Shown here: in pieces, positions 33 through 64,000 of the stretch
Numbering within the stretch: position 1 is the first letter of the stretch
Layout: each line of letters begins with the position of its first letter
Notes under the pieces: generated by a model
The model's input: only the letters and a program-made list of their open reading frames with translations
Databases searched by the model: none
What the model was told of the DNA's origin: nothing
NCBI GenBank assembly: GCA_032718865.1
Contig: JALUTQ010000005.1
Span: 1,240,001 to 1,304,000 of the forward strand
Origin: Tilletia caries
Lineage: Eukaryota; Basidiomycota; Exobasidiomycetes; Tilletiales; Tilletiaceae
Direction: 5' to 3'
Length of the DNA: 64,000 nucleotides
Program-made: the position numbers and the translations under genes

Positions 33-2622
33 ATGTTCCGATCCGTCGCAACACCTCTCCGCGCCTCGGCGCGCATCACGGCGTCCTCGTCATCGGTCTC
101 CTCGCGGCTACCGCGCGCAGCTGTGGCAGCTTCCTTCTCCCAGTCCGCCACACAGCGCGCCACGGCACCTTCTCCGCCAGCTCCGGAGAAGCCGCTGCCG
201 GAGGTCACTCTCACCATCGATGGCAAGGTAAGTCTGACAGCTCCGTCCTTTGCGCAGAGAAGCGGCGCGAAATCAGCTTTGCACGAGGACTTAGGGACTA
301 ACCGTAATCTTACCCTTCGCAGACTGTCACCGTCCCTCAAGGCACGGCCCTCATTCAAGCGTGCGAGAAGGCAGGCGCACAAATCCCTCGTTTCTGTTAC
401 CACGACCGGCTGATGATCGCAGGTAACTGCCGAATGGTGAGTCCCTCTGAAATCGGCCCATACGTTCCACAGTTTTCCTTACTGAATACCGCATACATGC
501 GCCTTTTTCCAGTGTCTCGTCGAATCGAAGGGTGCACCGAAGCCGCTCGCTTCATGTGCTTTCCCTGCCATGCCCGGTCAAGTTATCACCACCGACTCGC
601 CCTACGTCGCAAAAGCGCGGGAAGGCGTTCTCGAATTCATGCTGAACAACCACCCGCTCGACTGCCCCATCTGCGACTGGGGAGGAGAATGCGATCTGCA
701 AGACCAGAGCATGCGGTACGGTTCCGACCGGGGTCGCTTCCACGAAATCAAAGGAAAGCGCGCTGTCGAGGACAAAAACTTCGGCCCGCTCATCAAGACC
801 GTCATGACCCGATGCATCCACTGCACTCGTTGCGTCCGCTTTGCCAACGACGTTGCTGGTGTGCAGGACCTCGGCACTTCAGGCCGAGGCAACAACCTAC
901 AGATCGGCACCTACATCGAGAAGACGCTCGACTCCGAGATGAGCGGAAATGTTATCGACCTTTGCCCCGTCGGTGCACTCACCTCCAAGCCCTACGCGTT
1001 CCAGGCCCGACCATGGGAGCTCAAGAAGACCGAGAGCATCGACGTCCTCGACGCCGTTGGGTCTAACATCCGTGTGGACTCTCGCGGCGTCCAAGTTATG
1101 CGCATCTTGCCCCGCCTGAACGAGGACATCAACGAGGAGTGGATCAACGACAAGACTCGCTTCGCATACGACGGCCTCAAGTACCAGCGCCTGACCACCC
1201 CTCTCATCCGCCAAGGTGACCGCTTCGTCCCTGCATCATGGCCTGAGGCCCTCGGAACCGTTGCTGAGGGACTCGCCGCTTCTGGGGCCAAGGGCGACGA
1301 AATTCAGGCTGTTGCCGGCGCGCTCGCCGACACAGAGTCTCTCGTCGTGCTCAAGGACCTGATCAACTCTCTCGGCTCGGACAACTTGGCCCTCGACATC
1401 GTACAGGGTGACGTCGCCCCTGCACACGGTGTCGACCTCAGGTCCAGCTATGCTTTCAACACTACCATTACCGGCATCGACCAGGCTGACGTCGTTCTCC
1501 TCATCGGCACCAACCCACGTCACGAGGCTGCCCTCATCAACACTCGTATTCGCAAGAACTGGCTGCACCGGAATGCCGACGTTGGCCTGATCGGAGAGAA
1601 GGTCGACCTCACGTACGAGCCCGAGCACCTCGGAACCGACGCTATCAAGGCCATTCAGAGCCTGACTGACGGCAAGACCGAGGGTGACTTTGCTAAGCTC
1701 TGGGCGAGTGCCAAGAAGCCAATGATCATCGTCGGATCCGGTGTGGCTGAACGGTCAGATGCTGGCCCTATCTTCAGCGCCATTGCCGGTTTGTTGGAGA
1801 AGAACAAGGATCGCATCCTGAAGTCCGACTGGAACGGTTACAACATCCTTCACCGGCATGCATCCCGCGTTGGCGCCTACGAGGTCGGTTTTGCCCCTCG
1901 CTCGGCCACTCAACCCGCGCCAACAGCCAAGTTCGTCTATCTACTCAACGCTGACGATGTCGTTCCCGAGACGGTCTCCAAGGACGCCTTTGTTGTGTAC
2001 CAGGGCCACCACGGCGACGCCGGCGCGCAGATCGCAGACGTTATCCTTCCCGGAGCCGCATACACAGAGAAGAGTGTCACCTATGTCAACACCGAGGGCC
2101 GACCGCAACTGACCCGGGCCGCCGTACCACCACCAGGCGCGGCACGCGAAGACTGGAAGATCCTGCGTGCGCTGGCCGAAGTCCTCGGTCTGCACGGTTC
2201 ACGGGCGGCGACTCTCCAGAGCGTGGACGACGTTCGGCAGCGGATGTACGAGATCTCGCCTGCGCTTGTGCGGTATGACGAGTTTGAGGGCGCGAGTGGC
2301 GAGGTGGACCGGTTGGCGGCGACGAGTTTGGCGAAGAATGCGGCGGCGGCGAAGAACGGTGGCGATGCTGGCCCGTTGAGCGGGAAAGTGGTCAAGAACT
2401 TCTATCAGACGGATGTGATCAGTCGGGCAAGTCCCACGATGGCCAAGGTGAGTAGTAGCTGGGCATCTGCTTTTTTCTTCCCTGACCCCCGACTCTTTGA
2501 TTGGCATACTGACACGACGACACCTCTTCAATTTTCAGTGCACAAAAGCATTCGTCGACAAGATCCCAGCAGACCAACTGGAGGCACCCCTAGGAGCGGC
2601 CAAGGCTGTATCGCTCGGCTAA
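33..2622 (+). CDS. NDUFS1: NADH:ubiquinone oxidoreductase 75-kDa subunit, mitochondrial complex I
   Basis: Electron-transfer subunit of the complex I peripheral arm, carrying iron-sulfur clusters from NADH toward ubiquinone. Four exons, 33-227, 323-436, 513-2447 and 2539-2622, all joined in phase 0, give 775 residues; introns start GTAAGT or GTGAGT and end CAG. The N-terminus is rich in Ser, Arg and Ala without acids, as in a mitochondrial presequence. Exon 2 brings RFCYHDRL and NCRM and exon 3 continues CLVES, forming the 2Fe-2S cysteine pattern. Next come [18 protein letters not shown] and RCIHCTRC with LCPVGAL, the 4Fe-4S ligands, followed by the molybdopterin-oxidoreductase-like C-terminal half. 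Length fits the family (about 700-750 plus presequence). The last small exon adds the C-terminus ending AKAVSLG. Identification is firm; the start is the first ATG and gives the presequence. Confidence 0.95.
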
Positions 2623-3855
2623 AGGAAACGGATCCGCTCATTCTTTCTAGAGGGGGTTTCCTTTCTCCCCGTCTCTGTCAATCTGATCTCCCCTCCCTCC
2701 GTCTCCTTTTCTTTCCATTCCAGCTCAATCCCAGCCACTTGTCATTCTACTCCCCTCTGATGCAAATTCAAGAAGAAAACGTAGAACTATCGTACGTGTT
2801 CCTTGGTGCCTCCTTTGTGCCTGGGAGAAGGAAGGCGTGAGGGGCGATGGCAGCGACGGCGGCGGCGCCATCGACTTCGACAATGACATGCTACTAGACG
2901 ATGAGAATTACGAGGCGGACGACGAGTGGCTGATCGCGCGTGTGGAAAAAGGGGAGCGGTTACACAAAGAGCGAACAAAGGGCGGGACGGCTCACATCGT
3001 GGGAGGACTGCGATAACGAGCTCGGTGACGGGGCTGATTTGTTCGAGCTTGCAGGCGTGGGCCGATGGGCGAGAGTGTGAGCCGACCACGAGTTGGATGG
3101 ATGTTTGACGGACAGGTATCTGGATGGATGGGTGGACGAGTGGATGGGGTCGACCGGCGCTGTGAGTTGTGAGAGGATGAGTGTTGCTCCTGATATGCAA
3201 TGGACGAAGGTATGGTCGCCTCGTTCACGACTGCGAAGATGATGAGGAAGGAGGAGAAGATCGTATCAGTACCGAGGGGAATGGGAGATGAAGGGCTCCA
3301 GGACTTGGTGGCTAGAGTGGACCAGAGCTGAAGGCTGGTGAGCTCGGCGGTGAGGCTTGAGGGTGAAGCTCGAGCCTTGTGCTTGACGAGGTTGGCGAGT
3401 GGAGATGCATGTGGGCGATGTGAATGGGGTGCATGGATGCTTGTGCGTGTGTGAGGATATGCGGGTCGTGCGAGACTGTTTGAGAGAGAGAGAGAGAGAG
3501 ATGTGTGAAGAAAAGAGGAGAGCATATGAGTGAAGGAGTGAGTGAGACAACTTCTCGTTGGTGTCTGCGACATGGTTGGGATCGATGGCGACCAGCTGCA
3601 GACGGAGAGAGAGAGAGAGAGGGCGGGAAGAAAGGAAGAGAGAGGGGAGGGACTGTGCTGCACTTCGGCACTGCTGCTTGGAAATACTCGAGCAGAAGCA
3701 TCGCCTTATGTACCTTCGCGATGAGTTCGCTTGGTTTGTATAGGAAAAAAAATGCATGAGCATGAGGGACGGGTGGAGGGGGAGAGGGATGAGGATGAGT
3801 GCAAAAATGTCACGGTGGTTGGGGGGTGAGGGATTGGGTGGGGAAAGAGTATTAC
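2623..3855. other. Low-complexity stretch, possible 3' part of a minus-strand gene
   Basis: This holds the NDUFS1 3' flank and then a CT/GA-rich stretch including a (GA)n run near 3481-3501 and another near 3607-3622. Minus-strand reading frames stay open but are dominated by Ser, Leu, Pro and His. A stretch at about 3200-3400 (minus) with peptide such as SSLTAELTSLQLWSTLATKS looks more protein-like and could be a downstream exon of the gene at 3856-4527. I could not build a continuous exon chain, so no gene is called here. Confidence 0.35.
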
Positions 3856-3923
3856 CTGTATTGAAGACGGGGATGAAGATGTCAGCGACCTGTATTGAAG
3901 GCGGGGATGAAGATGTCAGCGAA
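3856..3923. repeat. Two-copy 34-bp tandem repeat
   Basis: Two near-identical 34-bp units (3856-3889 and 3890-3923) differ at two positions. Read on the minus strand each unit ends CAATACAGGT, so each contains a CAG|GT splice-like junction. The duplication therefore doubles a potential splice site in the putative minus-strand gene. Confidence 0.8.
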
Positions 3924-4527
3924 AGCATAGTGGGTGGGTGTCCCAGGGCGTGAGGAGGATGGGGCAAGTGGGTGCCAGTGGACGTCGGACAGTCGGAGCA
4001 GCTGGACGAGTAGCGCGCGGTGTTTGGTCTTCGTCGACTTTGTTCTCGGTCCGGGAAGGACTCGTGGCAGGTGTGGCAGTCGCCAGTAGCCCGGGAAGTC
4101 CCTCGGTGACTTCGGCCGTCGGCGTACTTGGCGCAGAAGGTGTCGAAATGTCGAGACGCCTTCGTAATTGTGGCCACCATCTCGGAGACGGCCAAGCTGG
4201 TCTCGCTGGCGGACAGAGCGAGCAGCTGTAGCCTGTTGGCGGTGGCTGTGTTGCCGATGTCGGGGATCTTGCTATCGAAGGGGCTCTGTTGGGCAGCCCT
4301 GAGGATTTGGGAGTGAGAGGCTGCGAGGAGGAAAAAGAAGTGGGGGGGGGAGGGGGGAAGAAAAGTGAGCAGACCGGCTCATTATATAGCTTCGACGCAC
4401 CCAGATCCTCAGAAGGACACTCACATAGTTTCCGGAGCAGATCCTAAAGCACGCCCGCGGTCAGACCCAGTTCTCATAATGAAGCAGCAGAGAAGTTAGA
4501 ATCGGTACTTACACCTTGTAAGTGCAT
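3856..4527 (-). CDS. Putative small multi-exon gene, unknown function, 3' end unresolved
   Basis: No recognised family. On the minus strand a microexon at 4425-4443 is flanked by an AG acceptor and a GTGAGT donor and joins the exon starting at 4298. The join creates ATG across the intron (AT|G) followed by AAQQSPFDSKIPDIGNTA. The next 55 or so residues look alpha-helical and codon third positions are strongly C/G, as in the neighbours. An upstream exon 4514-4527 could instead supply an ATG at 4527 in the same frame. After about residue 65 the frame becomes low in conserved-looking sequence. A GT donor at 3855 ends the exon within a 34-bp tandem repeat. The downstream exons are not resolved. 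It could be a small regulatory protein or a non-coding transcript. Confidence 0.35.
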
Positions 4528-6097
4528 TCGGTGATGCTCCCTGTCTTTGCTGTTACTGTTGCTGGGGGTGGTTCATGGCCTGTGTTTGAGGAAGTGGGTC
4601 AAGGAGGGGGGAAAGGGGAGGGGAAAGGGGAGGGGAGGGATGGGTAGAAGAAAAGTGATGAAGGAGGGGGGAGGGAGGATGTGAGTTGTCGATTTCCTGG
4701 AGCTTTAAGTACGCGAACCGAACTCACCTGATACCTACATACTTCCCAGTGCTCAATGCCACATGCCCACATGCCCAGGCACAAGTTCAGACGTTGGGAT
4801 GTGGGCGTACCGAAGAAAAGCAGAGACAGACTGCTCTCCTGCAGGATGTGATCGAGATGCGAGGAAGTTGTTGACTGGCCGTCGAGATCGAGATTCGAGG
4901 CTCTGCGATTGGACCTGAGAGTTGGGACAGCGAAACCCTGATCGTGGGCGGCGGGCGTGCCTTGATAAGGACATAGCTACGCCACTATGCCTTCTTTCTG
5001 ATGCCTCACCCTGCCGCTGGGCCGACCAGCGCTCTGCTACGCCGTTGCTTCCAATCGATTGTCACGGCCCTGACTCTCCGGCTGGATCGGTTGCCATCGA
5101 CTCATGCCTCGTTTGGATCGGTGCGTTTGTTGATTGTCGCCACGTCCATCCCCATCGGTTGCCCTCTCCTTGCCTTGACGACGCCCAGCAACGAATTGCT
5201 GCGACCCTGCCTGTGAGAAACGGGCCGTATAGCAAGGAGAAAAGGTATGGGAGAAGAAAAGGTCAGCAGTCGACCTCCGTCGTGTGTGTCTGGAAGTGCA
5301 TGTAGAGTCAGTGGCGCAATGGAGAAGCATATACTGCAGTGCACCGGCAAGGGGGCGATGTCTGTGATCACTGTGAAGCTCTTCCTCTTGTGCGCGCAGG
5401 AAGTTTCCTGACCGGAACTTGATCGTCGTCGTTGTTCATGGTCGCCCTTCACCCTGGGAAACGAGAGAGCACACGACCGGCACTTGAAACAGTCAACAAA
5501 GCGACGGCCTCGTGGAAAGGGGCAGCTAGATGGGCCAGCAGGAGAGCTAGGAAGGTGGCCAGCGTGCTTCCATGGCGTTTTGCCTGAAGCCTGACCGACG
5601 GGAATACTGGAGAGGAAACGTTTTGTTGAGATGCGTCCAGATGTACGAGAACCGGGAAGCGGGAAGCTGGCATGTTCCTTCCAAGGACCTGTTGGACTGC
5701 CGACCGTTCCCGTCGCCCACGCGCAAGTCGGCGGAGCTGGTGCTGATCATTGTAGCTGTAGGTAAACGTCTCGGTATGCACACTTTGAGATTTGCGTTGC
5801 AGGGATGTGCAGATGTAGTAATACATAAGTGCGTGGTGGGAGCTTGCTTCGATGCCTTGAGAAGACCATATTGGAGGAATCTGAATGCCTGGTGCCTGGA
5901 GCTTGGATGCCTAATGCCTGTTGCCTGATGCCTGCTGCTGCTTGAGCTGGAACGAAAGGGCGGCCAAGGATGCCCGCCAAGATCGTTGAAGATGTTCTTG
6001 AAGATGGAAGTGCATGCCATGAGGAAATCGTCCGAAGGCGTGTTTAAATCGATGGATGTTGCCTGTTGGGGCCTTCATGATGATGGGAGCCTCCTTC
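4528..6097. other. Long intergenic stretch without a supported gene
   Basis: All frames are interrupted or lack recognisable domains. Minus-strand GTGAGT-like sites near 4725 may belong to 5' untranslated exons of the gene at 3856-4527. Around 5885-5940 a short TGCCT-rich imperfect repeat is present. The part next to 6097 is the 3' flank of the Edc3-like gene. I see no RNA gene. Confidence 0.5.
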
Positions 6098-8026
6098 TCA
6101 CCGGCCTGGCCCATAAACACCATCTCGCAACCGCCGCACAAACACACCCGCACTCTCTGCACTGAGCCCCATCGGATTCGCATACTTGGCCGGCAACGCC
6201 TCCTTCGCGTCCGCATCCGAATGCGCAGGTGCCGGCAACGCGCCCAGATATCGCATGTTCTTCAGTCTCGGAGCGGACGTCGGAGTCGGAGTTGGCGTGT
6301 TTGTTTTGCTGTGCGCAAAGGTGGTGGAGAGGCCAAAGCGGAGGGCACCGCTTGGCTCGCCGGGTCCCGTGGGACGGACTGTACAGGTGTATCGCCTTGT
6401 ACCCGCCGACGCGGTCGTGGTGGCTGAGGAAGGGGACGGCAGAACACGGCCCTCCTCTGCTGTGGCTTCCTTGACTTCGACACCGCCCAGCGCTTCGAGG
6501 ACGCTGATTCGTTCCAGTAATCTGGATACTTCGTCTTGTAGCTCTGCTACGGTATTACTGCTTTGACCCTTGGTCTCCTTTGTCGACAACGATGCCGATG
6601 CCGATGCGGACGACTCGTTCTCCAGCTTCAAGCTCGCTGCGGCTGGCGCCGCCGTCGTGACCGTTGTTGGTGGTGGTACAACCAAGGAAGAACTCGGGAT
6701 CAGAATCGACTCATCCTCGTCGTCCTCGGCCCTCTCATGGTCATGTTGCTGAGATATGCCGTTATTCGCAGCTGTCGTCTGCGTGGAAGATGACGGTGTG
6801 CCACCTATGGCCGAGCGGGCTGCACTGGCGAATCCGCTCATGCGCGCTGCTGCCGACGCCATGAGACTGTTGAGCAAGCCCTCGCCGTTCGTCGTGGGAG
6901 ATTCCGGGCCCGCAGTTGATTCGTCACCTAAGGGAGCCGAGGAAGAGGCAGATGGTGAAGAAGGAGCGCTGGCCCGCTTGGTTGCTTTCGCGCCTGCATT
7001 GTCGCCCTCCTCGTCCTCCTCTTCATCACCACTGGCAGTGGGACTGATGACCATCTCGTGAATGCCCAGCTTGGTCTGCCCGTTCTTCCGATGAGCAAGT
7101 CTTGAGCTGGCAGCGCCACCGTTGCGGCGGGGACTGCCGTTATATTGGTTGCTTGCCCCGCCATTATTGACGCCCTCTTCTTCCTCGTCCCCGCTCTCGA
7201 ATCTGGACGACATCGGGACGGCATTGCTTGGACCGACACCGTTAGGTCCTCTCTTGAGCGGCACGGCGCCAGATTGCCCGCCTCCGATGCGGTTATGAGA
7301 GACGAGGAGTGTATCGGGGTCGGTCTGATCTGCCCTCTGTGTTTTGCGAAAGCCAGACATTAAGCATCACCAAACACTGCAAGCGGAACAGCGCAGTCCT
7401 GGGCTTTGAAAGCTCACCCGTATTTCCTCCCAGATCTTCGCCTTGTCAAACGTCTTGAGTGCGCCTTCGAAGTCAAAGTCCTCCTGAAACCCAAGCTTGC
7501 TGGCTGGCTCGCCGGAGCCATTGGGACCGTCCCCTGCGTCTGCGGCGGCACCTTCTGCCGTTGTTGCCGATGCCTTCTTCTTCCTCCGCTCTGCGCGCCT
7601 CTTCTTGCTGTTGCCGGCGGTGCCAGCGGTGGCTGATGCTGTCGTTGTTGAGGAAGGATCTTGCTCCTCGTCAAGGGCGCGACTGTCGGCCATCGTCGGC
7701 GCAGTCTCCGCATGGAAATCGGCAGGTAATGGTTCCAGTGGCCGCATGAACGACGAGGAAGTAGCAGAGGTTGCTGATTGCGCGGGAGTTGGGAGCGGTC
7801 GCTGTTGCTGCTCCTCGTCATTGAGGAAGCGCATATCCTGGACCTCGTCGGCTCGGATGGAGAAGATGGCAGTTGTGCGATCGTCTCGGATCTGGAGTGC
7901 GCGCGTGGTCGGGTTGAGAGCGGTGATGGCGCCGGTGTAGGAGCCGCCGCTGGTCAGGCTCAGGTGGACGCGCTTGCCGATGAAGGGCGAGGGCGCCGAT
8001 GCTGTTGTCGACGCTGATGCTGACAT
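6098..8026 (-). CDS. Edc3-like LSm/FDF-domain protein (mRNA decapping factor) without a visible YjeF_N domain
   Basis: Likely scaffold of cytoplasmic mRNA decapping complexes (P-bodies). Two exons, 7418-8026 and 6098-7336, join in phase 0 through a GTGAGC...CAG intron to give 615 residues. The start ATG at 8026 gives MSASAST and leads directly into the LSm fold (about residues 14-70: IGKRVHLSLTSGGSYTGAI). An FDF box follows near residues 180-203 (LGFQEDFDFEGALKTFDK...IWEEIR). The spliced exon continues TDPDTLLVSHNR, which matches how the FDF region ends in Edc3 proteins and supports the splice. The remaining roughly 400 residues are mostly acidic/Ser-rich disorder with a short coiled-coil-like segment (VAELQDEVSRLLERISVLE). 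Edc3 normally ends in a YjeF_N dimerisation domain of about 200 residues; I cannot see it, so either it is lost, diverged, or this is an Edc3-related paralogue. Confidence 0.75.
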
Positions 8027-52854: not shown

Positions 52855-53073
52855 GAGTTTATAGAAATTAGAATATGAACGGGAAATGAAAAGTACCAAG
52901 AAACATGCATGTCTTGACTCTTGATGACTGATGTTGCTTAATGCTTGGTCTGGATATCTTAGACTCGAATTCTCAAAAGGCGTGCTCAATGCAGTGACCT
53001 GTCGGATGTGGATTGCATACCTAAAACAATGGCCCAGAAGCACAGTCAATCATTCAAATCACATAGACGCCCT

Positions 53074-53359
53074 CCGCGCCTCGCTCTCAGGGTAGCTTCG
53101 CTACCCTTCGAGCTCTCCGCAATGATTTTCCACACAAGACAGGTGATGAGCAGATAGACATAGAACTCCCCAAAGATGTAATGTAACATGTGTATTGCAT
53201 ACCTGATCGGTGACCCACAGGCCACAGTTGATAAATCGATATGGCCTGACGCTTACCGCGCCTCGCTCTCAGGGTAGCTTCGCTACCCTTCGAGCTCTCC
53301 GCCATGATTTTCCACACAATATAGATGATGAGCACTGAGCAGATAGAACTCCCCAAAGG
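53074..53359. repeat. Tandem units of 182 bp with perfect hairpin and LTR-start fragment
   Basis: A perfect hairpin, AGGGTAGC-TTC-GCTACCCT, occurs at 53089-53107 and again at 53271-53289, a spacing of 182 bp. Each unit continues with GATTTTCCACACAA, then GAACTCCCCAAAG, then a copy of the LTR start (TGTAATGT..., diverged in the first unit at about 53179). The second unit runs straight into LTR 1 at 53360. Confidence 0.75.
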
Positions 53360-54272
53360 TGTAATGTGATAGTGTATTGCGTACCTTATCGGTGACCCAC
53401 AGGCCACAGTTGATGGATCAATATGGACTGACGAGTAGTCAGTAGTCAGTAGTCAGTAGTCAGTAGCATTCTGGGGCACCATCACCTGGTAGATGTAGGC
53501 GTGTATCTCAAGCAACTTACCACTGGCACGACTTGTAAGTTTTAGGCAGGTCAGAGTTGAAGGTTGGTGAACGCTGGAGTAAGTTGGGCAGTTGGTAGCT
53601 GCGTGATCGTGATGCGTTCGTCAAAAAGTTGAAGACCTTTCAACTTTCTCGGAGGGTTTTGAGTTTTTGACTATGGCTATGAACTTCCTCGGAGGGTTTT
53701 TGACTTTTTGACTATGGCTATCGAAGGCGTGGGAAAAGTGGAGGTAGAAGACAGACAGAAACGGGCAACGAACGGCGGAAGGACGGCATGTGAACAGCAA
53801 ATTGCTATCTTCATAAAGAAAAACTGGGAGAAATCGAGAGCGTCGATGGATGCTTAGAACACGGACACCCAGGCGAAGTTTGAGAAGATTTAAAGGAGTT
53901 TTGAAGAATTTCATTCGAGGGATGTTGCAACACTTTTTCTCGGCCGTAAAAATCTAAGGGGCAGATATAAGTGAATATAACCCCCATACTAAAGTCTGGG
54001 GAATCGTCAGTCTCGTCAACTCTACTGTGCTGGACGAGGTCCATGTGGCTCTTATCTTATCGTATCTGTTCTCTTCCTCTTCCTCTTCGTTTCCTTTCCT
54101 TTTTCTCACACTCGCACTCCTCCGCATAGCAACACCAGTACCTCCACATTTCTCACGCTATCCTCTCTCCTCCTCATCTTTTCCCTTCCCGAGCTCATCC
54201 TTTGTACTTAGTCCTTTCTTCCTCGTCATTATACACTCTGCTTTTCACTCCATAATAGTCTTGTCTATTACA
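53360..54272 (+). repeat. LTR-like direct repeat, left copy
   Basis: 913 bp, TGTAAT...ATTACA, nearly identical to 56214-57132. The same 20 bp (CAGATAGAACTCCCCAAAGG) precedes both copies. It contains a run of GTAGTCA units near 53433-53465 and twin GGAGGGTTTTTGA motifs. Confidence 0.8.
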
Positions 54273-54399
54273 TGGTGATGAGAGTGGTTTCGCTTTGCTG
54301 AGCGAACGACGCAGGCCGAGTGACCCACACTTGCAACGCCCTGACCCCAGATCCCTCCCTTCTACTTTATTCATCATCACCCTCAGTTCCCCTTCAAGC

Positions 54400-54570
54400 A
54401 GCACTTTTCGGCGTGCAAGGCGGCCTAGACTGTTTCTACACCGGGCCACCCTCTCTCGCCTTTTCCGCTCACACCCGGCCATCTCTCCTCAAGCAACCAC
54501 CTTCGGCGTGCAAGGCGGTCTAGACTTTCTGCTGTTCGGCACTGTCGGGCCACCCTCTCTCGCCCAAGTT
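54400..54570 (+). repeat. Two-copy tandem repeat in the leader of the FHA ORF
   Basis: TTCGGCGTGCAAGGCGG and GGGCCACCCTCTCTCGCC each occur twice at about 95-bp spacing, between LTR 1 and the FHA start codon. Confidence 0.7.
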
Positions 54571-54704
54571 GCTGGCTCCTCCTCTACCGATCTCTACGCC
54601 TCTCCATCGCCTCAAGTTTCATTTCGTCTTCATCCTTCTTTCTCAGCCCTTCACCGCCCTACCGCCATTTACCTTCCTCACATTTTCTGCATCCACAAAC
54701 CACC

Positions 54705-56249
54705 ATGGCAGACAACAAGTCGACTATACAGCTTCGACTTACGCCTGTGTCCGTCCCCTTTGATCCCAAAACCTTCGCAATTCGACCGACGGAGAAAGTT
54801 CGAATCGATCTCGTCGGTGCGAGCACCTCCGTCACCCCTCCGCGTCCCGACAATGGCGTCTTTCCTTGTGCTGCGCTCGATAGGCACCCCGCACACATCA
54901 TCTCCAACGGTTCCTACTTCACGCTCAAGACTTCTGTGCTGGAGTCCAACAGCATCAAAGTCGACGGCTGCCTTCTGCACGATCACACACACACTCTCAG
55001 GAACGGCGAGATCATCGAGTTTGGCCGGGCGACATTCGTGCGACTTGATGAGGCTTACGACGAAGATGGCGATTACAAGTGTTGGCCCCTTTACAGCTTT
55101 GTACCCGCCATCTCGATGAAGGTTCACCTCACCTTTCCTCCACACTTCGACAGCCGTCGCGTCTGGACGGATCCATTCGGACCTCCGGTCTCTTACACTC
55201 CCCCGTCGTCCATCAAGCCTTCAACCGCTCTCTCTCTCACCTTCTCAAAACGTCACCCAGTTCCGACACCCGCCCGTGTACTCGATCACGTTCCACGGAT
55301 GACAGCTCCCTCGTCCTCCCCTCCACAAGCGTTCAAGGCTCCACAGCTTGCATCTGTTCCGGTTCTCGACCCTGCTGCTCCACACGGTACCAACTGGGCC
55401 GGGGTCGCACATCTCCTTGAGGAACTCCGCGCAGTCGCGCCTTCGCCGCGCTCGTCGTCTTCCTCTCCCCGGCTGTTGCCCTCGTCTTACGTCACACCAC
55501 TGATTGCGGACGCGTACTATCCACCCACTTCCGTTTCACCACCTGTCCCACTCGCGCGGCGTACATTCTGCTATGGCGACTTCGTTAGCACAGGTGGAGG
55601 AGCCCTTCCTGCTGAGCTTTCCGGCGCGCGTTCCAGCAAGCATGAGACCGTGGCGACATCGCTGAAATCCGAGCCAGACGCACCTCCGGACGCATTCCCT
55701 ACCGCATGCTCCCCCGAAGCGCATACCTCGCCCCGGACATCCACTCCCCACTGCGGGTCTGCTGTTGGGCCTCCGGACGATGATTATCGCAGTGGTCATC
55801 CAGCTTCTGCTCTCCGCTCTGCCCATCTCGCCGTATCCCGCGTCTGGATTGCCTGGAGGCACGCACGCCGGCAGATCCACAATTCGGCGGTGACTTCCGT
55901 TGAGATTGCGCTGGGACGTGTCCGTGCCGCGCTGCAGCAAACAAGGTCGGCGCCTCGCCCTAGTGCCATCGAATCAGTGCCTCTGGCGACGAATGGCGTG
56001 CGTACTCCTGCGAGCGTTTTCCCTCCACAGCCTCTGTACCATCCAGCTGCCAATGCTGTTCTCCCTTGTGCATCACAGCCGTGGACATGGCCTCCGTATC
56101 TCCCATATTCTCCACTTTACAGCCAGATCACACAACACCTGCAGCTACTGTTCGCTTCTCTTTATCGGGACTCTCCTGCGCTCGTTCCCATTCCAGATAG
56201 AACTCCCCAAAGGTGTAATGTGATAGTGTATTGCGTACCTTATCGGTGA
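54705..56249 (+). CDS. FHA-like domain protein inside the LTR pair
   Basis: FHA domains bind phosphothreonine peptides. Single open frame of 514 residues with a good start context (CCACCATGGCAG). The FHA-like region is residues about 25-110: RHPAHIISNGSYFTLKTS, then NSIKVDGCLL, then HTLRNGEIIEFGRATFVRL, which follows the FHA pattern of R-x-x-x-H, S/N-G-K-x-N-G and L-x-x-G-x-x-x-x-F-G, although the usual SxxH is DRHPAH. The remaining 400 residues are Ser/Pro-rich with helical pieces (HLAVSRVWIAWRHARRQIHNS). The last 12 or so codons and the stop lie in the right LTR-like repeat. It may be a captured host gene or a diverged structural protein of the element. The frame is intact, arguing for recent function. 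Confidence 0.65.
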   Translation: MADNKSTIQLRLTPVSVPFDPKTFAIRPTEKVRIDLVGASTSVTPPRPDNGVFPCAALDRHPAHIISNGSYFTLKTSVLESNSIKVDGCLLHDHTHTLRNGEIIEFGRATFVRLDEAYDEDGDYKCWPLYSFVPAISMKVHLTFPPHFDSRRVWTDPFGPPVSYTPPSSIKPSTALSLTFSKRHPVPTPARVLDHVPRMTAPSSSPPQAFKAPQLASVPVLDPAAPHGTNWAGVAHLLEELRAVAPSPRSSSSSPRLLPSSYVTPLIADAYYPPTSVSPPVPLARRTFCYGDFVSTGGGALPAELSGARSSKHETVATSLKSEPDAPPDAFPTACSPEAHTSPRTSTPHCGSAVGPPDDDYRSGHPASALRSAHLAVSRVWIAWRHARRQIHNSAVTSVEIALGRVRAALQQTRSAPRPSAIESVPLATNGVRTPASVFPPQPLYHPAANAVLPCASQPWTWPPYLPYSPLYSQITQHLQLLFASLYRDSPALVPIPDRTPQRCNVIVYCVPYR

Positions 56250-57132
56250 CCCACAGGCCACAGTTGATGGATCAATATGGACTGACGAGTAGTCAGTAGT
56301 CAGTAGTCAGTAGTCAGTAGTCAGTAGCATTCTGGGGCACCATCACCTGGTAGATGTAGGCGTGTATCTCAAGCAACTTACCACTGGCACGACTTGTAAG
56401 TTTTAGGCAGGTCAGAGTTGAAGGTTGGTGAACGCTGGAGTAAGTTGGGCAGTTGGTAGCTGCGTGATCGTGATGCGTTCGTCAAAAAAAAGTTGAAGAC
56501 CTTTCAACTTTCTCGGAGGGTTTTTGAGTTTTTGACTATGGCTATGAACTTCCTCGGAGGGTTTTTGACTTTTGACTATGGCTATCGAAGGCGTGGGAAA
56601 AGTGGAGGTAGAAGACAGACAGAAACGGGCAACGAACGGCGGAAGGACGGCATGTGAACAGCAAATTGCTATCTTCATAAAGAAAAACTGGGAGAAATCG
56701 AGAGCGTCGATGGATGCTTAGAACACGGACACCCAGGCGAAGTTTGAGAAGATTTAAAGGAGTTTTGAAGAATTTCATTCGAGGGATGTTGCAACACTTT
56801 TTCTCGGCCGTAAAAATCTAAGGGGCAGATATAAGTGAATATAACCCCATACTAAAGTCTGGGGAATCGTCAGTCTCGTCAACTCTACTGTGCTGGACGA
56901 GGTCCATGTGGCTCTTATCTTATCGTATCTGTTCTCTTCCTCTTCCTCTTCGTTTCCTTTCCTTTTCTCACACTCGCACTCCTCCGCATAGCAACACCAG
57001 TACCTCCACATTTCTCACGCTATCCTCTCTCCTCCTCATCTTTTCCCTTCCCGAGCTCATCCTTTGTACTTAGTCCTTTCTTCCTCGTCATTATACACTC
57101 TGCTTTTCACTCCATAATAGTCCTCTATTACA
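56214..57132 (+). repeat. LTR-like direct repeat, right copy
   Basis: 919 bp. Differences from the left copy include one extra GTAGTCA-type unit, changes in A-run length near 56484, and ATAGTCCTCTATTACA against ATAGTCTTGTCTATTACA at the end. The FHA ORF reads into its first 36 bp. Confidence 0.8.
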
Positions 57133-57471
57133 TCTACAGAGCACGCACGCGCTCACCGTCGGGAACAGGGTTTCCGCTCCCGTCTTTGTACTAACGTACT
57201 ATAGCAAGGAGTTGTGTGAATTGATGGAGAGAGGAAAGGGAAAGATACAATCGAGAAGGGAAGTGTTGCTCTAGAGAGGTGTTGGTCTCGAGTGATGATC
57301 ATGGCGTGATCACGAGAGTTGAGCCGAGGAAGCAGAGAAGGGAAGAGAACGGGAAGCGGAGGGAACGGGACGGAACGGAGCAGAGCGGAACGAAGGGAAA
57401 AGGAAGAGAAAGGAAAGGAATCGAGAAGAGAGAAGTGGAGGCAGAGTAACGGCCGATAGCCATATAGCACA
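57133..57471 (-). repeat. Probable 3' LTR of Ty3/Gypsy-like element 1
   Basis: Directly after the pol stop the minus strand reads GCGGCGGGGA, a polypurine tract, then TGTGCTATATGG, an LTR-type start at 57471. The sequence runs about 340 bp to the edge of the FHA element at 57132. It is rich in GTTCCGTTCC-type repeats. The partner LTR of this element is not found. Confidence 0.55.
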
Positions 57472-57516: not shown

Positions 57517-60500
57517 TCAGCCAACCAAGCGGGAAAGGGCGTCGACATTGGAGTGTTTCCGGCCTGGTCGGTACTCGAATCGCAGCAAGTGCAGATGGGG
57601 AAGTAAGAGGGCTCGGCAGCGCGAAATGACCGGGCCGTACTGCGTAGCACCCGTTGATGTCAACATCTTTGACATGGGGAGATGGTCGGTGACAACAGTC
57701 ACGGGTACGCCTTCCAACAGGTGCGCCATTCGAGCGAAGGACCATGCCAGGCAGCACAACTCGAGCTCAGCGGCCACGAGCTTCTGCTCCGAAGGCGAGG
57801 TAAGTCGGGACTGAAATGCGATGGGACGTTCGCGGGCCGTTACTGATCTGCCGTCTTTCATCACCTCTCGGCATCCAGTGATCGGACCGTGCATCACTTC
57901 CTCCCATGACGGAACAGCACCAGCATGCACCACGCCGACATCGAAGTCACGCAGGCCCAACGGCGGGCGACGCTCGCGAGGACCCAGTGGTGGAGCGACG
58001 TCGAGCTCGTCCTCCGCATCATCACCCACGGCGACTTCATCAATCACGCCGGGCTCGTCGACCTCGGCAGCAGGAGCCGGTAACGGCACAGGTGGAGGAG
58101 AGCAGCGCTGCAGCGCGAAAGGGTCAGGTGAGCCAGGCAGAGGATCCAGTTGATCAATGCTGAACTCGTCACTGATACGCAAGTCGTCTGGTAGCACAAG
58201 GCGGACGCGATGCGGAGACAGGACCTCCCGCACAGTATATGGACCGGCCTTTCGCGCGTCGAGCTTCCCCTCGCCCAGTCCTGGGATCGGTCGATTTCCG
58301 AGTCGCACGAACACCTGGTCACCCGCATGTAGGACGGGAAGAGGACCGCGACGCGCATCGTAGCGACGCTTCTGCTGTGCGCGAGCGGAAGCAATCGCCC
58401 GGTACGCATCGGAGAGGCGTTCGGAGGCAGCAAGAAGGCGATCATCAAAGCCCTCCGCTCCCCGTCCGGCATCGGCGTCAAAGACCGCGTGCGCCAAGTC
58501 GGTATGAGCGACGAACACCAGGTCAAAGGGACGATGGCCAGTGGTAACGTTCGGGCTGCTGTTGAAAGCGAGCTCCACGGCAGGAACGACAACCCGATCC
58601 CAAGGCGCGTGCCCAGCCGCAGTCAAGGCGCGAAGAGCGGACTGGACAGTTTGCACGGTCCTCTCCACGAAGTTCGCTTGCTGGTGGTACGGCGTCGAAG
58701 GCTTCAGCTCTGCACCCAACGAACGCGCAAGGGCTTGCATCACTTGGCCCGTCAGCTTTGCCTCGCTATCCGACACCAAACGTCGGGGGCGCCAACCCAA
58801 ACGTAGGACGCGGTTGCTCAGAATGGCCGCGATCCCAGCAGCATCGATCGAGGACTTGCAAGGTTCCAGCATGATCAAACGCAAAAAGCCGTCAGCGATG
58901 AACAAAACTGCGTCGCGGCCGTGGGACGAGGGGAACCCCGAAACGACGTCGAGCGACACGTCTTCAAACGGCAGCCGGGGGTCGTGCTCGACATCCAAGT
59001 CTCCGACGCGAGGACGAGGCTTCGTCTTCAGGCAGAGCAGGCAGTGCGCCACCCACGCGCGGACGTGCTCGGCCAATCGTGGACGCCAGAATGACTTCGA
59101 CACGGCCAACAGCGTTTTGGAATAGCCAAAGTGACCGCCGCTCTCGTGCGCGAGTCGCAGAGCCAAAGGCAGTGCGCCGTCCGGTAGCGCCCATCGTCCA
59201 TCAACACGGCGAACCAGGACGCCATCCTCCACCACCCACTCGTCCGATTCATCAGCACCAGCCGCCTCCATGCGGCGGAGAAGAGGGCCGAAGTAGCGAT
59301 CGGCGAGCAGCCAGGACCGCCAGCGCTCTCGGGATACGGGAACGGGATTCGGAAGAGGGGAAGGCGCAGCCGGGTAAGCGGAGGGAGACAGCAGCTCCTC
59401 GTCGACAAACACCTGATGGAGGGCGGCGGCGAAAGCGGACTTGCTGGCGTCTACATACAAGACGTAGGGGCGCGTAGGGTCTGGATGAGCGAGCACTGGT
59501 GGGGTGGCGATGGCGCGCTTGAGTTGACTGAAGCTGCGCTCTTGGGCATCATCCCAGCTCACGAGCTCGCGATCGGCGTTCGTGGGGGTTCCATCAACGC
59601 GGACCAGACGAGACCGATCTCCGACCGATTCGTACCGCCACCCCTTTGTCAAGCTCGTCAACGGCGCGGCAATCTCGGCATACCCAGGAACAAACGCGCG
59701 ATAGTATCCGAACAACCCAAGCGCATGGTACACGTCTCGCAGGGTTCGCGGTCGGGGCAGCTCCTGAACGGCCTTGGCTCTCTCCTCCCACACGGCAACG
59801 CCGGCTCCGGACACCTTGCGCCCAAGAAGGGTGAGGCTTGGAACAGCGAAGGTGCACTTGGAGGGGGAAAACTTCAGGCCGATCTGCGATGCACTGGTCA
59901 GGATGGTCTCCAACGTGGAGAGGTGTTCCTCCAATGTCGCCGTCGCCGCTATAACATCGTCGATGTATATAACGGCCGTCTTCTATCGCAGCGATCCCAA
60001 CACTCGATCCATCAACCTTTGGAACACGGCGGGGGCGTTCTTGAGGCCGAAGGGGACTGTCTTATATTGGAACAGTCCCCGATGACACACGAACGCAGTT
60101 TTCCACCGGTCCTTCTCCGCGACGGGAAGCTGGTGGTATCCCCGAATAGCATCTAATGAACTAAACCAGCGTTTACCCTGCAGTGTCTGGCACACGGCGT
60201 CCGCGGTGGGGAGTGGATACCGGTCGGACACCGTGGCGGAGTTGAGATTGCGGTAATCGACGCAAAATCTCCACTTGTCGTACTGCTTCACCATCAGCAC
60301 TGGGTATGACACAGGACTCGCCGCCGGCTCAATCACATCCCAGGAGAGAAGCTGGTCTAATGCCGAGTCCATCTTCGCACGTTTCTCCGGGCTCGCGCGG
60401 CGCGGAGGTTCAGAACGAAGCTCGGTGTCTGCAACGATAGGGATCTCCATCGCAACACCGCGGATCAGCCCGGGGCGTCCATCCAACGCAAACGCTTCGG

Positions 60501-61026
60501 TGTGACGGCGAAGCAGTTCGACGACGGCGGGATGAGGGGCGCCGGTCGAGTCAACACCAACGCGGAAGTGGCCATCAACCAGGACGGCCTCAGCATCCCG
60601 GCAGAGCGCGTGAGCAGGGTCCTCAACGCCCTCGAAAAAGTCAAGAGGCTCAGCAGTGGTGTCATCCCGGCCCGTCTCTGGCTTCCATGCGTGCGGATCG
60701 GCAGCTGCCGTCCATAGATCGGCCTGAGGCAGGGGAGACCCGAGTTCGAATCGATCGTCGGAGGGCGATGACGAGGCGCGATCTCCGAGATGGACCAAGA
60801 CGGCGTCTGCGATGGGAGTGCGACGATCCAGGTGGACGGTGCGGGAGCTGTGATTCCCGATGAGGATATGCTTGGTGTCGCGGCCTCCCAGAGCAGCGGG
60901 GCCAGCAATCGTGACGGACTCGTCGTGACTGGTCATGAGCCGAGGATGGATCAAGTAGTCGACTCCCGACGCCAGGACTCCAGTATCGACAGGTATCCAA
61001 GCCATCGATCGAGCAGGCAGGCACAC
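57517..61026 (-). pseudogene. Ty3/Gypsy-like pol, element 1, with integrase nested in RNase H and one in-frame stop
   Basis: One frame from 61026 to 57517, broken only by TAG at 59983-59985. Domains in order: pre-RT linker; RT palm/fingers (WRFCVDYRNLNSATV, FSSLDAIRGYHQLP, FGLKNAPAVFQRLMD), the TAG, then VIYIDDVIA and the thumb (FGYYRAFVPGYAEIAAPLTSL); first RNase H part YVLYVDASKSAFAAALHQ (59409-59468); integrase with HHCC zinc (HESGGHFGYSK, CLLC), SLDVVSG, VSDSEAKLTG and HQQANFVERTV as the D, D, E; a GPY-like tail (RKAGPYTVREVLSPHRVRL); then the second RNase H part RERPIAFQSRLTS, AAELELCCLAW, VVTDHLPM and NVDALSR at the very C-terminus. Gag and protease are absent; the left flank is truncated. 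Confidence 0.88.
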
Positions 61027-61089
61027 TGCCGCCGTCGAGCAGAGCTGAGCTTCCTTGGCGAAGGGTTGGGGAAGGTGCTCGTGTATCGG

Positions 61090-61503
61090 TAGCGTGCCGA
61101 TAGGGTACTGACCTGCGGGGAAAGTACGAGTAAGAGGACAACGTCCAATAACCTTGAGACAACGTCTAAGGGGAACAAAGGCAACGCCAGAGTGTAGAGA
61201 AGAGAGTGCAGATGAATGTGGAATTTGAATGGATAACTAAGTACAGGGAGCTGTTATATACTAGAGAGCAGCTTGTTAGGACCGGGAGAGAGTATAGGGA
61301 GTTGTCGCGAAGGTGAGCGAGGGAAAGATGAGGAAGAAGGAGCGCACCGTTGCGCAACGATCTGAAGGCAAAAGTGGGAAGAGGAAGTGGAGCTGATCGG
61401 AGTGGCACGGAGTGGAGCGGAACGGAATCGGAACGGAACGGAGGGAAGTGAAGCCAAGAGAGAATTGAGAGAAAGAAGAGAGCACTGACCACCGTACAGC
61501 ACA
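61090..61503 (-). repeat. Probable 3' LTR of Ty3/Gypsy-like element 2
   Basis: After the pol stop the minus strand reads GCGGTGGGGA followed by TGTGCTGTACGG at 61503, the same tract and LTR start seen in element 1. It includes a TATATA motif near 61255 and GGAACGGAAC repeats. The inner end (about 61090-61160) is not certain, because element 1's truncated pol begins there. Confidence 0.5.
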
Positions 61504-61534
61504 TCCCCACCGCAAGATGACTGATCGTCCCGGA

Positions 61535-64000
61535 TCAGATCGCTGGAGGAAGTCTCGACAGAGCATCGACGTTGACGTGACTGTTGCCGGCGCGATGGAC
61601 GAAGCGCAGATTGGTCAAATGCGGAAGCATGAGTGCGCGACATCGAGAGATCGTTGGACCATATGGAATCGGTGTCGTCGAGGTCAACATCGAACCGAGG
61701 GGAGCGTGGTCGGTTACCACCGTCACCGAAGCACCTTCGAGCCAATGAGCCCAGCGCGAGTAGGCCCAGGCAAGGCAGCAAAGCTCCAATTCCGGCGCCA
61801 CCATCTTCCGCTCCGTGGCCGAGGTGAGTCGAGACAAGAACGCGACAGGACGCTCCCGAAGCTCGATATTGACCCCGTTGACCTCTATGACCCGATGGCG
61901 ATAGATCGGACCGCGAAGGGCATCCTGCAGCTCATCGTTCCCAGCAGACGAGACGACCCCCACCTGGAATCCTCGCATGCGGTCGGGCGGACGACGATCT
62001 CGAGCAGGGAGATCTAGCAAGGACGGAGACAGGTATGTGCCGTCGGCGGGGCCCACAGACTCGATCGGAGTGGAAACTGACGCGTCCTCTCCCTCGTCGT
62101 GCAAAGCAGGGAGCACAGGCGCATCCAACTCCTCGCGCGCGTTGACGAATGGGTCCGGAGAACGAGGGACGGCGTCGAGTTGCTCGACGCTGAACTCGTC
62201 GCCGATGGTAGAATCAACGCCGAGGTCGAGACGGACACGATGCGGCGACAAGACCTCGCTAATCCGATATGGGCCGGCCTTTCGTGGATCGATCTTATTG
62301 GTGAGTAGACCCGGAACTGGCCGATCACGGAGGCGGATATAGACTTGGTCATCAACCGCAAAGGGCGGAATGGGCTGACGACGTTTGTCATATCGACGCT
62401 TCTGTTCCGCCCGAGCAGCTTGGATCGCAATCCGCGCATCCTGAAAGCGTTCGTCCGCGACAGCCAACCGGTCGGCAAACGAAGACACGCCGGCATGATC
62501 GACGGAATCGAACACGGCATGGGCGGCGTCAGGGTGATGCACGAAGACTAGATCGAATGGGCGGAAACCTGTGACCGACGAGGGCGTCGCATTCATCGCC
62601 AGTTCGACGGTGGGTAGCAGACGGCGATCCCAGTGAGTACGATCCTCCGCACCCATAGCCTGCAGGACCTGCTGAACTGTTTGGATTGCGCGTTCCACAG
62701 CGTTGGCCTGCTGATGGTGCGGCGGAGAGGGTGTGAGCTCGGCTCGGAGCGACTTGGCCAGAGCCGACATCACGGCGCCGGTCATCCGGGCTTCGGAATC
62801 CGACACCAACCGTCGAGGGCGCCAACCCCATCGGAGAACACGGTCACTGAAGATCGCCGCAATGCCTTCAGCCGTCACCGAGCTCGAACACGGCTGGAGC
62901 AAGATCATGCGCGAAAAGACATCAAGAATGACCAGCACAGCATCGTTGCCCGCTCTGGAACGATTCAACCCGAAGAGCAAGTCGAGGCTGATGGTGTGGA
63001 ACGGAAACTGAGGATCATGGTCGACGTCCAGGCTGCCGACCTTCGGAAGGCGTTTCGTTCGCAGACAAACAGGGCAGTGTTTCACCCACGAACGAACAGC
63101 CACGGACAGCGAAGGGCGCCAGAAGTTCTTGGATACAGCAAGGTACGTCTTCAGAAATCCGAAGTGTCCTCGACGATCGTGCACTGACTTGAGTATTTCG
63201 GAAATTGCAGCCTCCGGAATCGCAAGACGATCATCGACGCGGCGCACCAAGAAACCATCCGACATGGTCCACTCATCGTCGGCGGAGCCATCCTCGACCT
63301 TCCGAATGATCGGAGCGAAATACCGATCGCTTCGCAACCAACTGCACCAACGCTCCTTAGCAATCTCGGGCGGAAGAAGGCCGACCGGCATAGCGTGGTG
63401 CACGGCAGACTGCAGAGTCTGTAAGCGCGGTGTAGCGGGCTCCTCGAACACTTGATGTAGGATGGCTGCGAAGGCGTCTTTGCTCGCATCAACATAAAGG
63501 ACGAAGGGACGATCAGGGTCGGGGTGAGCAAGGATCGGAGAAGTAGCGATAGCCTTCTTGATGGCATCGAAGCTGTCTTGCTGGGCAGCCTCCCACGATA
63601 AGACGACACGGTCGGCCGACACCGACGATCCCTCGGTATTCGTCAGCCGATAACGACCGTCGGATCTCGCGGAATACTTCCAGCCACGAGTCAACTGGGT
63701 CAACGGCGATGCGAGCTCTGCAAACCGTTTGACGAAGACACGATAGTACCCGAAAAGACCCAGTACGTGGTAGATTTCCCGGAGAGTTGTCGGCCGAGGC
63801 AGGTCGCTAACCGCCTTCGCTCTATCCTCCCAGACCGCGACTCCACCACCCGACACCTTGCGGCCCAGCAACACCAAGGAAGGCACGGCAAACGTACACT
63901 TGCTGGGGCTGAACTTCAGCCCAGCCCGAGTGGCATTCGCCAGTAGTGTCCCTAACGCCTGGACATGCTCGTCAACGGAGGTTGACGCCACGACGATGTC
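61535..64000 (-). CDS. Ty3/Gypsy-like pol, element 2, integrase nested in RNase H, continues past the window
   Basis: Open frame of over 820 codons with no internal stop, cut by the right window edge at the last Asp of the RT YIDD box (DIVVAST). Domain order is as in element 1: RT thumb (LGLFGYYRVFVKRFAELASPL), first RNase H part FVLYVDASKDAFAAILHQV (63451-63508), integrase (HDRRGHFGFLK, CPVC; SLDLLFG, VSDSEARMTG, HQQANAVERAIQ), GPY-like RKAGPYRISEVLSPHRVRL, then second RNase H part RERPVAFLSRLTS, APELELCCLAW, VVTDHAPL and NVDALSR (61535-61861). The two elements are clearly diverged in protein sequence, so the layout is inherited rather than a local rearrangement. Likely functional coding capacity as far as visible. 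Confidence 0.9.
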   Translation of the reverse strand, partial: DIVVASTSVDEHVQALGTLLANATRAGLKFSPSKCTFAVPSLVLLGRKVSGGGVAVWEDRAKAVSDLPRPTTLREIYHVLGLFGYYRVFVKRFAELASPLTQLTRGWKYSARSDGRYRLTNTEGSSVSADRVVLSWEAAQQDSFDAIKKAIATSPILAHPDPDRPFVLYVDASKDAFAAILHQVFEEPATPRLQTLQSAVHHAMPVGLLPPEIAKERWCSWLRSDRYFAPIIRKVEDGSADDEWTMSDGFLVRRVDDRLAIPEAAISEILKSVHDRRGHFGFLKTYLAVSKNFWRPSLSVAVRSWVKHCPVCLRTKRLPKVGSLDVDHDPQFPFHTISLDLLFGLNRSRAGNDAVLVILDVFSRMILLQPCSSSVTAEGIAAIFSDRVLRWGWRPRRLVSDSEARMTGAVMSALAKSLRAELTPSPPHHQQANAVERAIQTVQQVLQAMGAEDRTHWDRRLLPTVELAMNATPSSVTGFRPFDLVFVHHPDAAHAVFDSVDHAGVSSFADRLAVADERFQDARIAIQAARAEQKRRYDKRRQPIPPFAVDDQVYIRLRDRPVPGLLTNKIDPRKAGPYRISEVLSPHRVRLDLGVDSTIGDEFSVEQLDAVPRSPDPFVNAREELDAPVLPALHDEGEDASVSTPIESVGPADGTYLSPSLLDLPARDRRPPDRMRGFQVGVVSSAGNDELQDALRGPIYRHRVIEVNGVNIELRERPVAFLSRLTSATERKMVAPELELCCLAWAYSRWAHWLEGASVTVVTDHAPLGSMLTSTTPIPYGPTISRCRALMLPHLTNLRFVHRAGNSHVNVDALSRLPPAI

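Follow-up and report, generated by a model that had tools for sequence, protein, structure and literature searches.

The 64,000-nucleotide stretch of the Tilletia caries genome analyzed here (assembly GCA_032718865.1, contig JALUTQ010000005.1, positions 1,240,001 to 1,304,000; hereafter "the window") ends in parts of two Ty3/Gypsy-like long terminal repeat (LTR) retrotransposons, elements 1 and 2, whose pol genes are read from the minus strand in the frames 57517-59982 and 61535-64000, respectively. In both frames, the encoded domains follow the order reverse transcriptase (RT), N-terminal part of RNase H, integrase, and C-terminal part of RNase H. The catalytic residues of RNase H are divided between its two parts, with one Asp in the first half and Glu, Asp, and Asp in the second. 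The domains were located as follows (residue numbers are those of the translated slices; integrase borders are approximate).

59410-59556, minus strand: element 1, RNase H first half (residues 142-190 of an 820-residue slice), with catalytic D177 and ending in HQV; RT_RNaseH_2 match at 142-202
58129-59394, minus strand: element 1, integrase (residues ∼196-617), with zinc finger, D-D-E core, and SH3 (GPY/F-like) tail; H2C2 match at 271-322, SH3_Tf2-1 match at 553-613
57529-57831, minus strand: element 1, RNase H second half, ERP through DALSR; RT_RNaseH match at 714-776
63596-64000, minus strand: element 2, end of RT and connection; RVT_1 E value of 0.0037, under the cut-off, and 641 bits with an RT profile over L001
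63449-63595, minus strand: element 2, RNase H first half (residues 136-184), with catalytic D171 and ending in HQV
62156-63415, minus strand: element 2, integrase (residues ∼196-615), with HHCC zinc finger, D340, D401, E436, and SH3; matches to the Ty3 and prototype foamy virus (PFV) integrases
61856-62155, minus strand: element 2, linker from integrase to RNase H second half, mostly predicted disordered
61553-61855, minus strand: element 2, RNase H second half, ERP through DALSR, with E737, D764, and D812

Pfam profiles gave the same order. The best stretch of RT_RNaseH_2 covered profile positions 1-60 of 100 in element 1 and 1-51 of 100 in element 2, and was followed in both elements by Integrase_H2C2, rve (under the Pfam cut-off), SH3_Tf2-1 (above the cut-off in element 1 only), and then RT_RNaseH, which matched at profile positions 27-89 of 105 in element 1 and 29-90 of 105 in element 2. 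Between the HQV and ERP motifs lay 526 residues in element 1 and 531 in element 2. When element 2 was compared with the Ty3 Gag-Pol protein by phmmer (slice numbering), residues 36-86 aligned with Ty3 857-907 and residues 620-679 with Ty3 916-975, and the integrase (156-500) aligned with Ty3 1085-1432. In this alignment, the eight Ty3 RNase H residues 908-915 give way to ∼530 residues that contain the integrase; the two RNase H pieces were weak singly (9.3 and 3.6 bits), the score being carried by the integrase. Pfam, phmmer, and the residue alignment agreed that the two halves are complementary and hold one set of catalytic residues. The first-pass annotation, which was made from the DNA letters, had proposed that a complete integrase with zinc finger, D-D-E core, and GPY-like tail separates two nonoverlapping, complementary RNase H halves in both pol genes, and each part of that proposal was borne out. 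It had also described the frame of element 2 as free of stops; this held inside the window, but one stop and one frameshift were found upstream of it.

To judge conservation of the layout, we used an alignment of 123 rows (120 database proteins, protein P0208, and the two window frames), from which rows gapped at a given site (1 to 21) were excluded for that site. Both RNase H borders were readable in 101 of the 123 rows, and the spacing between the halves ranged from 418 to 576 residues. The four RNase H residues were kept in 113 of 114 (D), 107 of 108 (E), 105 of 106 (D), and 99 of 102 (D) readable rows, i.e., in 97 to 99%. With the integrase triad included (D in 122 of 122, D in 119 of 120, and E in 120 of 122), the seven catalytic residues were present in 97 to 100% of readable rows. 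Zinc-finger residues were retained in 117 to 118 of 117 to 119 rows, and the second His in 116 of 117. Known Ty3/Gypsy elements with two RNase H domains offer a different account of such pieces: the second half could be a separately acquired RNase H fragment and the first half a vestige, as in a dual arrangement of the Athila/Tat or retroviral kind in which both copies became truncated. Gain of a second RNase H is indeed a known route in Ty3/Gypsy, as described in a passage of PMC9040795. However, the first piece breaks off almost exactly where the second begins, the catalytic residues of one are not those of the other, and each is conserved; none of the 101 rows combined a complete RNase H ahead of the integrase with the same second half. 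We thus consider truncated dual domains highly improbable. Likewise, a complete second RNase H, which the first-pass annotation had flagged as telling against a split enzyme, was seen neither in these 101 rows nor by Pfam in the window pol genes.

Ratios of nonsynonymous to synonymous divergence (dN/dS) were obtained from a comparison of 27 loci, among which 12 pairs had a dS below 1.2; from these, the eight pairs whose dS reached 0.02 or more were analyzed domain by domain, and the pairs share members. In six pairs, dN/dS ranged from 0.01 to 0.06 for the RNase H first half and from 0.04 to 0.08 for the integrase; the two closest pairs gave 0.27 and 0.34, respectively. The second half gave 0.02 to 0.23 in the five pairs spanning it, and the linker 0.19 to 0.68 in six computable pairs, one pair being without synonymous change. 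Judged by these ratios, both RNase H halves are under purifying selection. Together with the residue conservation, they support the earlier proposal that selection keeps the layout. In one pair, L024 and L030, synonymous divergence was ∼0.9 to 1.9 up to the integrase and 0 to 0.07 in the linker and second half, which suggests recombination between nested copies.

Across the genome, 150 of 315 candidate RT_RNaseH matches were scored (as were 150 for the zinc-finger table). Among them, 71 were complete, 70 comprised the second half only, and 9 were neither; with so many in the half-domain form, the layout is not a matter of chance. An integrase zinc finger was listed at a distance of up to 2.5 kb on the same strand for 48 of the 70 half matches, and it lay upstream in all 48 (median, 1,201 bp); none was listed for the other 22. 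For the 71 complete matches, it lay downstream in 49 of 49 (median, 481 bp) and upstream in none, with none listed for 22. Nested and ordinary families thus coexist in one genome. For an RT tree, 64 loci with an RT match were reduced to 51 spanning at least 200 positions and to 45 after removal of identical ones; the tree was midpoint rooted, and its ordinary rows were taken solely from the top 30 RNase H matches plus L033 and L034. The 24 nested copies formed one clade (support, 0.839), whereas the 21 ordinary copies did not. Since the nested copies group apart from the ordinary ones, those in the window are part of a large nested family and not rearranged singletons. Copies with normal domain order, which the first-pass annotation had likewise named as evidence to the contrary, are therefore present in number but separate from the nested clade. 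In the ordinary copies closest to that clade, e.g., L043 and L050, RNase H is uninterrupted; in these two, an extended charged stretch separates it from the integrase zinc finger (∼970 bp in L043).

This coexistence raises the question of whether the nested elements could do without an RNase H of their own, their inactive domain being replaced in trans by that of ordinary Ty3/Gypsy elements in the same cell. Potential donors are at hand, complete matches being as numerous as half ones (71 versus 70). Against such complementation, all four RNase H catalytic residues are kept at the frequencies given above and both halves appear to be under purifying selection, so we regard it as very unlikely.

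The two elements in the window are themselves nested at the DNA level, as reflected by the following features.

57526-61081, minus strand: element 1 pol from the linker between protease (PR) and RT to the end of RNase H, corresponding to residues 252-1446 of the pol of copy L031 (tblastn, 56% identity)
59983-59985, minus strand: in-frame stop in the element 1 RT, at the end of frame 59983-61236, which is in frame with 57517-59982
61082-61503, minus strand: element 2 3' LTR, 422 bp, 100% identical to L065 3514-3935 (C5:1307514-1307935)
61077-61081, no strand: element 2 target-site duplication GCTCG, 5 bp, inside element 1 pol, with the same 5 bases beside the other LTR

Element 2 extends over 6,854 bp (C5:1301082-1307935), is bounded by LTRs with TG..CA ends, and sits in the element 1 pol between PR and RT. 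Its second LTR lies just beyond the window, and a gag match for it was found in L065. On the far side of element 2, the 5' part of the element 1 pol (pol 53-254, 45% identity) was recovered at L065 4554-3937 by tblastn. The identical 422-bp LTRs and the 5-bp duplication identify element 2 as a recent insertion into element 1. This true insertion might invite the view that the unusual domain order stems from one element lodged in the RNase H gene of another, or from a rearranged or misassembled copy, yet element 2 entered between PR and RT, outside RNase H. Moreover, the window frames are open through the junctions, matches come from several Tilletia species, and the 101 rows with readable borders keep their halves 418 to 576 residues apart. 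A rearranged or single-copy artifact was ruled out by the genome counts (70 half-form matches of 150) and the 123-row alignment, and we give this account practically no credence.

Both LTRs were examined for two copies, element 2 and L031. The latter has identical 400-bp LTRs, a 5-bp duplication, gag at 826-2406, and pol at 2370-6722, with unbroken frames and the nested order; a protease-like motif, DTGAS, was recognized by eye in its upstream part. Copies with the nested layout were thus inserted recently. For L032, no LTR pair was found around the nested pol within the stretch examined, which counts neither way, as L032 is possibly cut or old. In this assembly, the stop and the frameshift in the element 2 pol, the latter located from tblastn frames, and the stop in element 1 may each be either genuine or an artifact of assembly. 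A database protein of 1,319 residues (P0001) is identical to element 2 across the searched part and exceeds in length the 952 codons over which element 2 is open here.

Protein databases were searched in three runs, in each case scoring only the ∼7,990 candidates that shared most words. The first search gave 172 matches; 118 of the best 120 carry a name, and the names read were all Tilletia (T. indica, T. controversa, T. laevis, T. caries, and T. walkeri). As Tilletia filled this search, a short C-terminal profile was used for relatives beyond the genus, yielding 84 matches and, in a second run, 14. These included T. horrida and also Ustilago trichophora, U. tritici, Melanopsichium pennsylvanicum, and further records in which SH3, in several cases with a chromodomain, is followed by the second half of RNase H, beginning at profile position 22 to 30. 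RT_RNaseH_2 stops at position 50 to 60 of 100 in elements 1 and 2 and P0208, and restarts at 50 to 55 in the scanned relatives. From this shared second-half border, we infer that full nesting extends outside Tilletia. A Chromo match after SH3 and before the RNase H second half was present in 7 of 14 scanned relatives, 4 of the 7 being above the Pfam cut-off: P0204, P0205, and P0206 from Ustilago and Melanopsichium, and P0162, P0163, P0165, and P0209. The last, a JGI record with 28% identity, is the most distant full row. Pfam gave no Chromo match at E values up to 1 in the window pol genes, nor any in the scanned Tilletia copies. Apparently, the insert started out as a complete chromovirus integrase. 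Tilletia belongs to the Exobasidiomycetes and Melanopsichium to the Ustilaginomycetes. The U. hordei protein P0210 is a remnant with RT_RNaseH under the cut-off and no RNase H first half. A scan of viral contigs with profile A1 yielded 91 pattern matches, none of them a relative, although near host records may be missing from that scan.

Structure predictions were compatible with a single enzyme. In each of two AlphaFold models, the halves matched one RNase H, represented by VIA-align row 8r0s, which occurred once per list (best 50 of 1,000 rows in each). This suggests that the halves fold as one RNase H. The best 50 of 901 Foldseek rows were integrases and have no bearing on RNase H. Of the two outcomes put forward in the first-pass annotation, a split RNase H folding around the integrase is the one favored by selection, conservation, and the models. 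Taking these lines together, we consider it probable that a Ty3/Gypsy-related clade of smut-fungus elements carries its integrase nested in the β2-β3 hairpin loop of the pol RNase H, whose halves form one enzyme. The chain would leave RNase H after β2, build a complete integrase on flexible linkers, and reenter at β3, and the half-domains would fold into a single RNase H with a D-E-D-D site. RT, RNase H, and integrase would do their usual jobs, the integrase hanging from the RNase H hairpin, and the joined protein would be the working form. Activity of both RNase H and integrase is predicted from residue conservation, selection, and the models. As to origin, the layout may go back to a single transfer of a chromodomain-bearing integrase block into the loop of an ancestral smut element, the chromodomain being lost later in the Tilletia line.

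The linkers allow for another outcome, in which the protease cuts both of them and frees the integrase, leaving RNase H as two chains (RT plus β1-β2, and β3 to the end) held by β-sheet pairing. Consistent with this, the predicted local distance difference test score (pLDDT) is low on both integrase flanks (model residues 94-107 and 527-587, the latter below 50), the second linker changes fast by the dN/dS values above, and L031 has its protease-like motif upstream; in ordinary Ty3, the protease releases the integrase. The released second half, on the other hand, would have to meet its partner inside the particle, and we think this scheme unlikely. Uncut RT-integrase fusions occur in avian retroviruses and would make an uncut nested form less strange; a search of the open-licence literature returned nothing on such fusions. 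Extending the nested, single-enzyme reading, it is possible, at somewhat less than an even chance, that RT, RNase H, and integrase form a machine that is never cut, with the intasome formed while integrase is held at both ends in the RNase H hairpin and the completion of DNA synthesis physically coupled to integration, and that the layout predates the split of Tilletia and Ustilago, having arisen in a chromodomain-bearing element.

Several observations weigh against an integrase nested in one functional RNase H. Both window pol genes have lesions in this assembly, and the support of the nested RT clade is not high. The dN/dS ratios of the RNase H first half are rough, this half having only 51 codons and a dS above 1.2 in 5 of 8 pairs. 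It was also not seen outside Tilletia, where the listed proteins start downstream or lack it. The predicted template modeling scores were modest (0.48 and 0.34). In the first model, the stretch with the last catalytic Asp has a pLDDT of ∼67, and the second, running from RT to the end, has a poor RT, so that it offers no guide to how RT packs against RNase H. For each row, VIA-align reports only where the alignment starts and ends, and one row per list makes up the RNase H comparison. Finally, the linkers are long, disordered, and weakly constrained, and would suit protease sites too.

The closest match in the PDB was Ty3 Gag-Pol (7q5b; E value, 9e-113, with profile A1, including the RT columns of full-length rows). 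By sequence, the nested elements have RT, RNase H, and integrase of the Ty3 type, and element 2 and L031 have two LTRs with TG..CA ends, a short target duplication, and gag before pol. They depart from Ty3/Gypsy (Metaviridae) in lacking a continuous RNase H ahead of the integrase, and, on these features, the family is best described as a Ty3/Gypsy-related nested variant rather than an ordinary member. Each nested pol block is alignable with Saccharomyces Ty3, and LTRs, gag, pol, and 5-bp duplication are alike, but the Ty3 RNase H runs on from 907 to 916 with the integrase after it, whereas the window pol genes hold the integrase-bearing insert in that loop. Ordinary Ty3/Gypsy elements of the same genome (L033, L034, L043, and L050) share the domains and an alignable RT, and have a continuous RNase H with integrase downstream. 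Chromoviruses share H2C2, D-D-E, and SH3_Tf2-1 with the nested elements; in the nested relatives, however, the RNase H second half comes after the chromodomain, and the chromodomain at the integrase C terminus is not found in the window pol genes. In Gmr1-like Gypsy elements, according to passages of PMC3587641 and PMC2774666, the integrase is placed upstream of RT; it is thus displaced too, but in the nested elements it remains downstream of RT. The dual RNase H elements (Athila/Tat, Odin, and retroviruses; passage of PMC9040795) also have an unusual RNase H architecture, consisting there of two domains, a tether and a new one, in contrast to the single domain split around integrase here. A fungal survey mentions composite elements with inserted domains (passage of PMC3248453), and passages of PMC10684912, on T. 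caries TC1_MSG, and of PMC9172201 give Gypsy counts without domain order. No description of an integrase within RNase H was found in titles and abstract beginnings of the open-licence literature, although one may exist elsewhere.

Next to element 1, a further LTR element occupies window positions 53335-57138 on the plus strand, with ∼940-bp LTRs that are 98% identical and a probable duplication, GAGCA. Its frame 54429-56249 encodes 606 residues without a Pfam match at E values up to 1 and has 22 genome matches, several of them pieces of one copy; part of it may resemble an FHA domain, as judged by eye. Repeats at 182-bp spacing (window 53006-53433; 83 to 92% alike) lie at and before the LTR start, with one unit within the LTR. 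No match was obtained in the window by Rfam and tRNA scans.

Classification of LTR elements draws on the order of pol domains, which is accounted for by protease cuts between whole domains; a nested, selected, and recently mobile family departs from that scheme. It makes several questions testable: whether integrase needs to be freed at all, whether RNase H can work as two chains, and whether its tie to RT and RNase H affects timing or the choice of target. It would also provide a natural case of a whole domain tolerated in the hairpin loop of RNase H. Annotation by domain lists hides domain order, and many such proteins are already in public databases under the name "hypothetical protein" or "RNA-directed DNA polymerase."
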